This document shows positions 9,890 to 34,948 of a stretch of DNA of 64,000 bases, piece by piece. This DNA comes from Candidatus Hinthialibacter antarcticus (GTDB taxonomy: Bacteria > Hinthialibacterota > Hinthialibacteria > Hinthialibacterales > Hinthialibacteraceae). Both the position numbers and the translations under genes were made by a program. The stretch is from the NCBI GenBank assembly GCA_030765645.1, contig JAVCCE010000064.1, positions 1-64,000 on the forward strand. The letters are read 5' to 3'. Position 1 is the first letter of the stretch. Each line of letters starts with the position of its first letter. A model generated the notes under the pieces. That model was not told the origin of the DNA, did not search any database, and saw only the letters and a program-made list of their open reading frames with translations.

Positions 9890-11852
9890 GCCAAAGTCTC
9901 CTGTAAAGGGTTTCTAAATCGTTCGTAAATGTTTCCGCATCACAAAGAGGAGACTGACAAAGTTGCGTTCGAAGCGATGCGCGTAATTGTTCAAGTGATG
10001 GAATCTGGTTCGCGAGATGGATTGCGATTTTACTATATTCCTCGATGCTCGAAGCGATCCACTCAGGGCGCCCGATCGCCTGCAGAATGCTCTCACCGAC
10101 ATGAGAGACAAACCGGTCGCCGCGTAACGTAATAACAGGGACGCCCATCCACAACGCTTCCGCTGTGGTGGTGCCGCCGTTAAACGGAAACGGGTCCAGC
10201 GCAATATCTACTTGATTGTATGTATTCAACAATTCAATGCGCGGCGAATTCCCTTCAATGATGATACGCTCCTCATCAATGCCGTTGCGTTTGAATGCGT
10301 CAATCATTTTCTGGCGAAGAGAGGGATCGTCAAAACCATTTGTTTTTAACAACAAACGGCTCTGTTCGATTTTCTGTAAAATGTTCGCCCACAACTCAAG
10401 TACGTTGTCATTGAATTTTGAGATTGCGTTGAAACAGCCAAACGTAACAAAACCGTTTTTCTTGCAAGGAAGTTCGCCGACAGAAACATTCATACAAGGC
10501 GGCGTGAAACAAAGATAACTATTTGGAAGACGCTCGACTCGTTCAATGTAATATTGTTCTTCTTCGGGAGGAATGACGAATGAGTCGCCAATAATCACAT
10601 CCATTTCGGGCAATCCCGTAGAGGAAAAATACCCCAACCAAGTCGCTTGAACCGGCGCAGGCTTTGCAGCGAACACCTCTAACCGGTTATTAGCCGTATG
10701 CCCTGACAAATCGATCAGAATATCAATGCCATCCTGTTGAATACGCTGAACGACCGCCTTGTCATTCAGCAAATGGATATCACGCCACTGTTGAACATAG
10801 CGTTTTAAACGCAGACTTAAATCATCTTCGACTTTTGCATTGGAATAACAATAGACTTCATATTGTTCCCGGTTATGTGCTCGAAAAACATGCTCGATAA
10901 AATACCCGACGGGATGGTTTCGCAAATCGCCGGACACATAGCCAATACGCAAGGGCCGGTCTTCACGCCAATCCCGCTGAAGACATGGAGCCTTCGGCGT
11001 GATGTTTGATAGTTGGCGCCCCCAGTGAACGGCCGCTTGACAGAGTTGCTCAGAAGTCGCTGTACCTGAATATTGAAGCGTTAAGAGATAGTTGTTCCAA
11101 TAAGGATCGCGGGGTTGCTCAAGGAGAAGCCAGTTCTGATAGTGTTGCACAGCGTCATCAACCGCGCCCTGTTCTTTCAACACTTTCGCCAAAAGAAGCT
11201 TTGCATTTCGCAGATCAGGGTTGAGAGTAATTGCATGCCGCAGTTCTTTCTCTGCATCGAAAAAGCGCCGTTGGTTCAGATATAATTTGCCGAGATTGGC
11301 ATGTACAGTCGCTTGATTGGGGCCGAGCGTAAGCGCCCGCATTAAACAATCTTCCGCGAGCGCGTGTTCACTCATTTCCATATACAGTGCGCCCAGGTTT
11401 GAGTGAGATTCACTTTTTTGAGGATCAATTTTAATTGCCCGCTTAAAGCAAGCCGCCGCTTCATGATATTGCTCATTCTGTCCATAGGCGTATCCGAGTT
11501 TTTGATAGGCTTCAATGTTTTCAGAATCCATTACGCAAGCCTGTTTTAGTGCATGAATCGCCTCCGGGTAGCGGCTTGAATTCGTGCAATATACACCTTT
11601 CAAAATAAAGAAAGCGACTTGCTCCGGCTCAATTTGAATGGCTTTGTCGATTGCTTGAATTGCCCGTTCCGGTTGATCGCTCTCATGATAGAGAAGGCTT
11701 ATCATCTTAAAGGCATTGGCGTCATTCGGATTATTCTGAATATACTGAAGATATCCCAAACGGGCTTCTTGAAACCTGCGGTTTTGATGCAGATGAATAG
11801 CATATTGAAGATTGAGTGCAGATATTTCTGAAGTTGTTGAAGGTAAAGGCAT
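9843..11852 (-). CDS. TPR protein with GT41 (OGT/SPINDLY-like) glycosyltransferase domain
   Basis: A 669-residue protein. Residues 20-250 are tandem tetratricopeptide repeats (for example AHANLGKLYLNQ-type helices). Residues 290-650 match the bacterial O-GlcNAc-transferase-like catalytic region: GYVSGDLRNHPVGYF, IDILIDLSGHTANNRL, QATWLGYFSSTG, FGCFNAISKF and DPFPFNGGTTTAEALWMGVPV. No signal peptide is seen. Relatives attach sugars to Ser/Thr of proteins in the cytoplasm. The start used is the ATG at 11852; a GTG directly before it is an alternative. It is the first gene of an operon with the C-methyltransferase. Target proteins are unknown. Confidence 0.9.
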   Translation of the reverse strand: MPLPSTTSEISALNLQYAIHLHQNRRFQEARLGYLQYIQNNPNDANAFKMISLLYHESDQPERAIQAIDKAIQIEPEQVAFFILKGVYCTNSSRYPEAIHALKQACVMDSENIEAYQKLGYAYGQNEQYHEAAACFKRAIKIDPQKSESHSNLGALYMEMSEHALAEDCLMRALTLGPNQATVHANLGKLYLNQRRFFDAEKELRHAITLNPDLRNAKLLLAKVLKEQGAVDDAVQHYQNWLLLEQPRDPYWNNYLLTLQYSGTATSEQLCQAAVHWGRQLSNITPKAPCLQRDWREDRPLRIGYVSGDLRNHPVGYFIEHVFRAHNREQYEVYCYSNAKVEDDLSLRLKRYVQQWRDIHLLNDKAVVQRIQQDGIDILIDLSGHTANNRLEVFAAKPAPVQATWLGYFSSTGLPEMDVIIGDSFVIPPEEEQYYIERVERLPNSYLCFTPPCMNVSVGELPCKKNGFVTFGCFNAISKFNDNVLELWANILQKIEQSRLLLKTNGFDDPSLRQKMIDAFKRNGIDEERIIIEGNSPRIELLNTYNQVDIALDPFPFNGGTTTAEALWMGVPVITLRGDRFVSHVGESILQAIGRPEWIASSIEEYSKIAIHLANQIPSLEQLRASLRTQLCQSPLCDAETFTNDLETLYRRLWHDCIRQTQTGCIPSA

Positions 11853-33085: not shown

Positions 33086-34948
33086 CTAATACATGCTCCA
33101 ATTCGAGACCGAAGATTCACTGTCCAATCGGCGATCTAGATCAATGCGACCGTCGAGTATTCTCTCTAACACTGAAACCAGGTCGGCTACTTCCGGCGGC
33201 GCCATCGCGCCTTGTTCAACAAGAAGCGCTTGATCGCGATTCACCGTAATTTCATAAACATAACCGTCTGCAATCGGGACTTCTTTCGGATAATACGAAT
33301 CGAGAACACTGAAATCAATTGTCTCCATGATCTCGCTTAAGCGGTCAAAACTCTCTTGTGGAACGAGGCCTGAGCGGTTGTTTGCTTCGATGACAGAGTC
33401 ACTGGTAATCAATGCGCTGCGGTCCATATCAACAGTCAAATTTTGAACCCACCCGGTAAAGCCGCCGCTGCGTTGAAAGGTAATCCATTCCGAATTCGGC
33501 GGTGATTCATCCCCGCCAACGGTCAACGTCGCGCGATACATCATGATATTGTTCACAATGGCGTGAACTGGATATTTGCCTTCATCCAACGTCTGCGTTC
33601 CGATCCATTCACGAAACGGTTCTTCCACTTCAGGCTGTCCGCCGACAGGCGCCTCAATCTGCAATGCTGCGATCAAAGTCTCCGGTTCCGATTCTCCAAC
33701 CGAGAGGTCTTTCCGGGTAAATACATAACCCGGCGTTGGAAAGATTCCAACAGCGTAGACATCGAACGCTTCGCCCGGTCGGGGATTCGGCGGGAGCATT
33801 TCTATACCAAATTTGTATATAGGGAATTCCGGTTTTTCATCTTCACCGACAATCAATCGCGCTTCATAGAACAAGACATCATTCATAAACCCACGCAGAG
33901 GATGCGCCCCCGTCGGCAATGCGACCGTTCCGACTTCTTCTTTGAAGGGCATGGGGTCATGCGGCGCGATGCCTTCCAATGGCAACACCGTGAGGTTCAC
34001 AACCACATGCGCCGGAATCGAGCGCGTCATGTACATTGATTTTTCCGCAATGAAATACCCCGGCGACGGAAACACGCCTTCAACGAATACGGTGAATTCT
34101 TCTCCTGCTTCAGGATATTCTGGTTCAATCACGATTTTCACATCGGGAACCATTGGCTCAGGACGCGGTTGGACTTTTCCGCCGACATCAAAGGCGCCTT
34201 CAAAAAACACCACATCGTTGACCGTTCCAATCAACGGATGAACTCCTTCGCTCAGGACTGCTTTGCCCGCAATGACGCGAAATGGCGTGATGACTTGCGC
34301 ATCCGGCCCAGTCGGTTCGTCAACATAAATCCGCGCTGCAATTTGTTCCGGCAATGACTCCATAATATCGAGGCGCTGGTCAACAACCGTGTACCCCGCG
34401 CTGGGAAACGCGCCAATAATATAGAACGTGACTTCATCGCCCGGCGCAGGCATGACGGGGTCCATAGCGATCTGCAAATTGAATTGCGAGTAATCAATTG
34501 GCTCAGGCGTTCCTTCAGGGGCGACGCGGAATTTCTTTTGATCGCTTACGACACCGTTGATCGTCGCAATAGCCTCATACTGGCCTTCAGGCAGACCCGT
34601 TACTGTAATTTTCTCTTCAACGTCAATTAAAACTTGAATACCAACTTCGGAGGCTTTAATGACTTTGAATGGCAAAAAAACTCGCGTCACATCATTTTCA
34701 TCGTCGAAAACGATCTGCGCTTCATTCGGCGCGATGAACGCATAACTTCCGTCATCTAAATATCCCCGAACGGTGAATGTCACATCACCGCCTTCGACCG
34801 GAAACGCAGGCGTAACCTCAAGCGCGGGCCGATAAAAGGGGATGGTAGGTTCTGTCTCTTGGCTTTGGGCGAATGCCGCGCCCAGGCACACAACAAACAT
34901 CAACATTAAAAGTGCGATGACATTCAAATAATCAAAACGGTATTTCAT
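33086..34948 (-). CDS. Exported four-repeat protein with C-terminal emfourin-like domain
   Basis: A 620-residue protein with a signal peptide (about 1-28, ending AFAQ). Four repeats of about 100 residues lie near 40-143, 156-258, 270-370 and 378-479. Each opens with a P-x-P-GxxxTF pattern and a GxFPSxGY turn, and ends near NDVxFxxxxxVGG; they look Ig-like. Residues 488-600 contain ITFQRSGGFTGW, a polar loop and YVYEITVN, close to emfourin, the inhibitor of protealysin-type M4 peptidases. No M4 peptidase gene is nearby. Function is inferred only: a surface or periplasmic protein that may restrain a protease. Confidence 0.7.
   Translation of the reverse strand: MKYRFDYLNVIALLMLMFVVCLGAAFAQSQETEPTIPFYRPALEVTPAFPVEGGDVTFTVRGYLDDGSYAFIAPNEAQIVFDDENDVTRVFLPFKVIKASEVGIQVLIDVEEKITVTGLPEGQYEAIATINGVVSDQKKFRVAPEGTPEPIDYSQFNLQIAMDPVMPAPGDEVTFYIIGAFPSAGYTVVDQRLDIMESLPEQIAARIYVDEPTGPDAQVITPFRVIAGKAVLSEGVHPLIGTVNDVVFFEGAFDVGGKVQPRPEPMVPDVKIVIEPEYPEAGEEFTVFVEGVFPSPGYFIAEKSMYMTRSIPAHVVVNLTVLPLEGIAPHDPMPFKEEVGTVALPTGAHPLRGFMNDVLFYEARLIVGEDEKPEFPIYKFGIEMLPPNPRPGEAFDVYAVGIFPTPGYVFTRKDLSVGESEPETLIAALQIEAPVGGQPEVEEPFREWIGTQTLDEGKYPVHAIVNNIMMYRATLTVGGDESPPNSEWITFQRSGGFTGWVQNLTVDMDRSALITSDSVIEANNRSGLVPQESFDRLSEIMETIDFSVLDSYYPKEVPIADGYVYEITVNRDQALLVEQGAMAPPEVADLVSVLERILDGRIDLDRRLDSESSVSNWSMY

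Follow-up and report, generated by a model that had tools for sequence, protein, structure and literature searches.

The window, that is, the whole 64-kb stretch of DNA analysed here, carries on its reverse strand a gene for a 620-aa protein, referred to below as the window protein. This protein is composed of a signal peptide, four all-beta repeats of about 100 residues, one emfourin-like domain and a short aromatic tail, and the motifs ITFQRSGGFTGW and YVYEITVN are both present in its translation. The features of the gene are located as follows:

33086..34948, (-) strand: ORF of the 620-aa window protein, ATG start, stop codon included
34868..34948, (-) strand: signal peptide, residues 1-27 (sequence, model helix 2-29 and hydropathy rule)
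34520..34834, (-) strand: Ig-like repeat 1, residues 39-143, the most divergent (repeat HMM i-E 7.5e-7; model strands)
34181..34483, (-) strand: Ig-like repeat 2, residues 156-256 (repeat HMM i-E 1.2e-42, seed member; model)
33845..34147, (-) strand: Ig-like repeat 3, residues 268-368 (repeat HMM i-E 1.1e-41, seed member; model)
33515..33817, (-) strand: Ig-like repeat 4, residues 378-478 (repeat HMM i-E 1.7e-41, seed member; model)
33140..33493, (-) strand: emfourin-like domain, about residues 486-603 (Pfam E 3.1e-4; hhalign 99.2%; AlphaFold2)
33452..33472, (-) strand: RSGGFTG loop, residues 493-499, emfourin signature (conservation of GG and G)
33254..33268, (-) strand: DGYVY, residues 561-565, with Asp561 as a candidate zinc-facing residue (conservation)
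33089..33115, (-) strand: tail SSVSNWSMY, residues 612-620, candidate sorting tail (W-x-x-[YF] statistics)

Export of the window protein, which an earlier note on this DNA had claimed, is supported by the signal peptide identified at the N-terminus. It satisfies a crude hydropathy rule and is probably cleaved after AFA (site judged by eye). In the AlphaFold2 model of the whole protein (mean pLDDT 73.2, pTM 0.28), residues 2-29 form a helix, the four repeats are all-beta, and an alpha/beta domain spans residues 489-598; given the pTM of 0.28, the model describes the individual domains and not their mutual arrangement. A syntenic homologue of the gene is found in the genome G005 (locus L028), with synteny common to both flanks, and the gene sits between a secretin/CpaB cluster and a cluster of ECF-sigma, anti-sigma and sulfatase genes (labels assigned by eye). 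No published account of this architecture was found in a literature search that leaves out most subscription journals. The viral contigs searched contain no relative, and a scan of named-genome contigs with the full-length protein gave no match.

The profile used for the repeats was seeded with nine repeats from three homologous proteins, three of the nine being repeats 2, 3 and 4 of the window protein. With this profile the window protein shows four copies. Of the seven other multidomain relatives, six have two to five copies each, and L033 has four full copies plus two fragments. Together with the all-beta model, the four copies agree with the four repeats of about 100 residues noticed earlier. 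Pfam gives no match within the first 478 residues, the weak Pfam matches of the repeats do not favour any one Ig family, and solved structures contain no sequence match for them. For the last domain, a full-length fold search returned Magoh; all its other matches were Ig-like, macroglobulin or complement folds, with E values of at least 1.1e-3 and a very large rmsd. This model-based search loosely backs the term Ig-like, which we consider a fair label for the four repeats. A relationship to the protease-complex protein PrcB was rejected as unproven. The PrcB_C profile (PF14343) matches two of 12 repeats at E up to 1 (best E 0.0013, under the cut-off), does not match window residues 156-256, and gives 25 bits summed over the whole repeat region of the relative L054 against a cut-off of 24, with no single stretch passing.

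The emfourin-like domain

Emfourin, as so far described, is a small protein that inhibits the protease encoded in the same operon. The earlier note had recognised emfourin in the last domain of the window protein, and the Pfam profile PF20242 does match the isolated domain (135 residues, residues 486-620) at 21.5 bits and E 3.1e-4, a score that does not reach the curated cut-off of 27 bits; the whole protein gives 16.1 bits and E 0.015. Ten of 13 homologous domains, the window domain included, are matched at E up to 1 (best 7e-7). When profiles were compared by hhalign, 17 domains of the window family aligned at 99.2% with 15 emfourins of another phylum, Chloroflexi (E 6.4e-20, 95 columns), and at 99.2% with eight exported emfourin-like proteins (E 6.9e-20), while the control with the Ig-like repeats gave 0.09-0.32%. 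These sequence comparisons firmly indicate a distant emfourin homologue. The homology seen by the earlier note therefore stands and membership at the curated threshold does not, which is why we write emfourin-like rather than emfourin. A six-frame PF20242 search of the organism's own genome gave no match at E<=0.001 and, at E<=10, a single weak match on contig C11 and none for the window domain, which this profile detects on a protein scan and not on a six-frame genome search.

Three loci were recovered from named genomes with a three-row profile. One of them, the Chloroflexi-titled L055, encodes at 9992-10294 a true emfourin of 101 residues (83.3 bits in Pfam), directly 3' of an M4 peptidase gene whose product weakly matches the protealysin propeptide. 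The string ITFQRSGGFTG is common to this emfourin and the window protein, and BLASTP of the window domain against it gives E 3e-9, a single-pair value. Among plasmids, one annotated emfourin was found with L055 as the query, and the window domain obtained a chance-level match only (E 7). The 15 canonical emfourins group together (support 0.93) in a FastTree phylogeny of 43 domains and 97 columns; most of the window family also groups together (14 domains, 0.83), with the Chloroflexi lipoprotein L105 among them.

It might be argued that the RSGGF motif is fortuitous and that the window domain is unrelated to emfourin. Such a reading could appeal to the single-sequence Pfam score under the cut-off, to NCBIfam, which has no match for the window domain but likewise none for the true emfourin L055, and to solved structures (PDB), where the window domain has no sequence match. 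Searches of the same structures with L055 gave no match either, and a 13-row domain profile gave nothing beyond chance. The chance reading is contradicted by the profile-profile value of 99.2% against controls of at most 0.32%, and the same residues are kept in nearly all 17 domains, so that we regard a chance resemblance as highly improbable.

The signature residues of the window domain are R493, G495, G496, F497, G499, D561 and Y565. Their conservation was assessed in an alignment of 15 emfourins, eight exported homologues and 17 window-family domains. GG and G of the first loop are kept in 15/15, 8/8 and 16-17/17 of these, respectively, the equivalent of Asp561 in 14/15, 8/8 and 15/17, and that of Tyr565 in 15/15, 8/8 and 14/17. 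Asn replaces the Asp561 equivalent in two of the 17 family domains, the GGF loop is missing from the homologue L031, and several exported homologues have C-x-D-C or CCD at the Asp561 position. An NMR structure study of emfourin reportedly proposed that an Asp binds the zinc, with hydrophobic contacts made by another loop.

The window domain thus shares with emfourin (M4in) the R-x-GG-F-x-G loop, the D-x-[FY]-x-Y loop, distant sequence homology, a helix after the first sheet, and a C-terminal P...L helix. In contrast to emfourin, it is exported, fused to Ig-like repeats, and scores under the cut-off, with no M4 gene found in its genome; it carries an inserted beta-hairpin of about 20 residues and belongs to a 620-aa multidomain protein instead of a small stand-alone one adjoining an M4 gene.

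A second Pfam family, DUF6438 (PF20033, curated cut-off 30 bits), matches 11 of the 13 family domains at E up to 1 (best 6.9e-6) and the window domain at 18.8 bits (E 0.002), under that cut-off. The Emfourin and DUF6438 families appear to be related at the sequence level, because the true emfourin L055 matches DUF6438 at 8.6e-6. We know of no function for DUF6438, and a literature search found no paper naming it.

For residues 486-620, AlphaFold2 gives a model with pLDDT 81.9, pTM 0.75 and the order EEEE-H-EE-H. The structure prediction suggested by the earlier note has yielded an alpha/beta fold whose closest match is Mago nashi; a solved emfourin structure is absent from the match lists. Mago nashi (PF02792), a core component of the eukaryotic exon junction complex, is the best fold match at Foldseek E 6.4e-5 (VIA Z 10.8, rmsd 5.8 A over 123 residues), and the next different fold has Z 6.0. 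Magoh chains superpose on the predicted model with Z 9.7-10.8, rmsd 4.0-5.9 A and identity of 9-12%. A sequence relationship to Mago is not supported: hhalign with a two-sequence Mago profile gives the family 0.3% and all domains together 1.6%, and a PF02792 search of 14 genomes at E up to 10 gave no match at emfourin-like loci. In a statistically insignificant profile alignment, Mago GKFG lies opposite GGFTG and the Mago DG beta-hairpin opposite the window hairpin. On the strength of the model it may be speculated that the exported, hairpin-bearing emfourin-like domains have the Mago fold and that Mago descends from this bacterial inhibitor superfamily, which we see as a long shot; if borne out by structure, the likeness would bear on the origin of a eukaryotic RNA-processing protein. 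The Streptomyces subtilisin inhibitor family (sermetstatin, SSTI), which comprises secreted bacterial peptidase inhibitors, has a partly similar arrangement, at the level of unrelated rows (VIA Z 4.3, 85 residues) and with no sequence relation seen. The viral fold library contains one match at E<=0.001, the uncharacterised Terrestrivirus protein A0A3G4ZN22 (E 2.7e-5).

Exported relatives in two phyla

The phylum of the window organism is represented in the collection by 14 genomes. Eight of them have the emfourin-like domain, including all six of the organism's family. Export and fusion, which the earlier note set against the usual stand-alone emfourin, are not peculiar to this protein; they turn out to be family-wide, and there are exported Chloroflexi lipoproteins (see below) as well. 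In relatives of the same order, the domain is present once to four times per protein or alone behind a signal peptide. The window protein, L027, L029 and L031 (the copy without the GGF loop) have one copy each, L030 has two, L028 three, and L032 four; L034 and L035 are short secreted proteins with one domain each, and L033 consists of repeats only, with no emfourin-like domain. The modules are arranged as Ig-Ig-Emf-Ig in L029, and as Ig-Emf-Emf-Ig-Ig followed by a dockerin-like end in a protein of G009 with two domains (repeats and dockerin label assigned by eye; Pfam there gives EF-hand alone, E 0.038). Contigs of relatives include L053 ('bacterium isolate RI_285') and L054 ('Candidatus Omnitrophota bacterium isolate SURF_12'). 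The surroundings of the ten family loci show no conserved partner gene.

A PF20242 survey of 251 genomes of the phylum of L055 gave matches in 27 genomes at E<=1e-4, at 30 places in all. We examined 29 of these (L108, the second half of a split gene, was left out) and L081. Eighteen loci match from profile position 1-2, and an M4 zinc motif lies within 1.5 kb in 17 of these 18 canonical loci, in keeping with the earlier statement that emfourin is usually a small, stand-alone protein coded beside its protease. The other 12 loci match from profile position 6 or later; eight of them have a lipobox-like signal (by eye), and the four without a visible signal also lack M4. An M4 motif adjoins four of the eight lipoprotein loci (L097, L099, L106 and L109). 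In these four the next gene is the M4 gene, which begins with a signal-peptide-like stretch of its own (in some cases the locus ends within the frame). In two of these enzymes Pfam confirmed Peptidase_M4, M4_C and FTP, and three of the lipoproteins scored 41-52 bits for Emfourin, above the cut-off. Pairs of a lipoprotein and a secreted M4 peptidase are located as follows; open frames at the first three loci range from 774 to 1,826 codons:

L115, 5565-11414: lipoprotein and secreted M4 pair
L116, 3772-6786: lipoprotein and secreted M4 pair
L117, 5839-11693: lipoprotein and secreted M4 pair
L106: lipoprotein and secreted M4 pair

It is a new observation that Chloroflexi-titled genomes encode exported emfourin-like lipoproteins immediately next to secreted M4 peptidases. 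These lipoproteins share with the window domain export, the same beta-hairpin insertion, and the retained Asp loop; they differ from it in being short and single-domain, in standing in tandem with a secreted M4 gene, and in passing the cut-off (three tested). Export is compatible with M4 inhibition, by analogy, because exported hairpin-bearing emfourin-like proteins adjoin secreted M4 genes. These pairs give the best reason to think that M4 can be inhibited by an emfourin-like domain that is exported and bears the hairpin.

A third emfourin-like type, with no visible signal peptide and no M4 nearby, is represented by L102, L104 and L107 and has SGG[LM]RFT[ST]R in place of GGFAG.

M4 peptidases and the proposed function

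The organism's own genome, which is 96.5% complete, has no match to PF01447, PF02868 or the FTP family PF07504. The earlier remark that no M4 gene is near the window gene holds and extends to the whole genome, in which the genome search proposed at that time finds no Peptidase_M4 family match; this absence is not final, because MAGs are incomplete. An HExxH scan of the window and nine relative loci found no M4-like gene near family genes. Three of the 14 phylum genomes have M4_C and eight have the domain, with both present in G001 and G002 only, where the M4 enzymes are of the secreted type, have FTP propeptides, and lie on contigs other than those of the domain genes. G006 has M4 and lacks the domain. 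M4 and the emfourin-like domain do not travel together in this phylum, and M4 was rejected as a constant partner of the domain, both being present in just two of 14 genomes. The GG-[FIL]-x-G and D-x-[FY]-x-Y loops are still conserved after the M4 linkage has been lost.

Giant secreted-type M4 peptidases with FTP, HYDIN/ASH-type Ig and PPC-like domains are encoded in G001 and G002, two genomes of the window organism's family (L111 5967-11336 and L112 6283-12129; open frames of 1,790 and 1,949 codons).

The likeliest reading, to which we give about even chances, is that the window protein is exported to inhibit foreign M4-type peptidases, its domain being carried on Ig-like spacers. After export, the four repeats would hold out the emfourin-like domain, which would block thermolysin-type (M4) or similar zinc peptidases by plugging their active-site cleft. 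The RSGGF loop would lie against the substrate sites and the conserved Asp561 of the DGY loop may face the zinc, together forming the plug. The targets are presumed to be peptidases of other organisms, because the own genome seems to be without an M4 enzyme, and the protein may shield cell-surface or secreted proteins. Where relatives have two to four domains in tandem, these would represent multi-headed forms.

Besides the emfourin homology, the kept loops, and the exported forms beside M4 genes, this proposal is supported by two published precedents. Emfourin is reported to form a 1:1 complex with protealysin at its active-site region and to inhibit thermolysin as well (PMC9505478). In fetuin-B, D153 of the CPDCP segment binds the zinc of astacin (PMC6789097), a precedent for an Asp on a metallopeptidase zinc, and several exported homologues have C-x-D-C or CCD at the equivalent place. 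Counting against M4 inhibition are the Pfam score under the cut-off, the lack of co-occurrence with M4 in the phylum and of a conserved partner gene, the loop loss in L031, and Asn in two of 17 domains.

The main rival is an adhesive or structural role, in which the emfourin fold has been reused as a surface module that binds polysaccharide, matrix or protein and inhibition has been lost. The shuffled modules of L029 and G009, the two to four tandem copies in relatives, and the lack of a protease among the neighbouring genes all fit this role, as do the own genome without an M4 match and the separate distribution of the domain and M4 in the phylum. However, both signature loops are nearly as strictly conserved as in true emfourins, and stand-alone secreted versions (L034 and L035) would be odd for a mere structural spacer. 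We therefore hold adhesion to be possible, if somewhat doubtful.

The domain might instead inhibit an endogenous exported zinc peptidase of another family, produced by the same cell. All six family genomes have the domain and just two of them have M4; a constant partner, if there is one, is therefore not M4. On the other hand, neither the 64-kb window nor the surroundings of the family loci contain an HExxH gene with M4-like glutamate spacing, and the own genome has no FTP-propeptide peptidase. We regard an endogenous target as unlikely.

Returning to inhibition of foreign M4-type peptidases, the emfourin fold is here exported, fused and multiplied in a lineage where the protease is mostly lacking. 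If the exported forms inhibit, M4 inhibition would be an extracellular activity in bacteria too, and possibly a shield against the peptidases of competitors or predators.

The C-terminal tail

The aromatic tail of the window protein ends in a W-x-x-Y motif. Signal-peptide calls in the following counts are based on a crude hydropathy test. Within 455 kb of the own genome, a W-x-x-[YF] end is found in eight of 148 signal-peptide-like ORFs against none of 186 others (p 0.0013), or in 7/147 when the window protein is set aside, the tail having first been noticed in the window family. The carriers are the window protein, six exported ORFs on contig C11, and C64 67057-68391. Outside the family, 400 kb of G009 gave 0/62 signal-peptide ORFs and 0/265 others. 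The tail is present in 3/70 signal-peptide ORFs against 0/196 others in G001 (374 kb), where two of the three belong to the protein family, and in 2/5 against 0/8 in G005 (19 kb), where one of the two does. Judging from these counts, the motif looks like a candidate family-level sorting tail, which probably directs the sorting of the window protein and of other exported proteins of the family. The fuller pattern is roughly [ST]-x-[VI]-x(2,3)-W-x-x-[YF], and this short tail offers a testable candidate sorting signal in an uncultured lineage.
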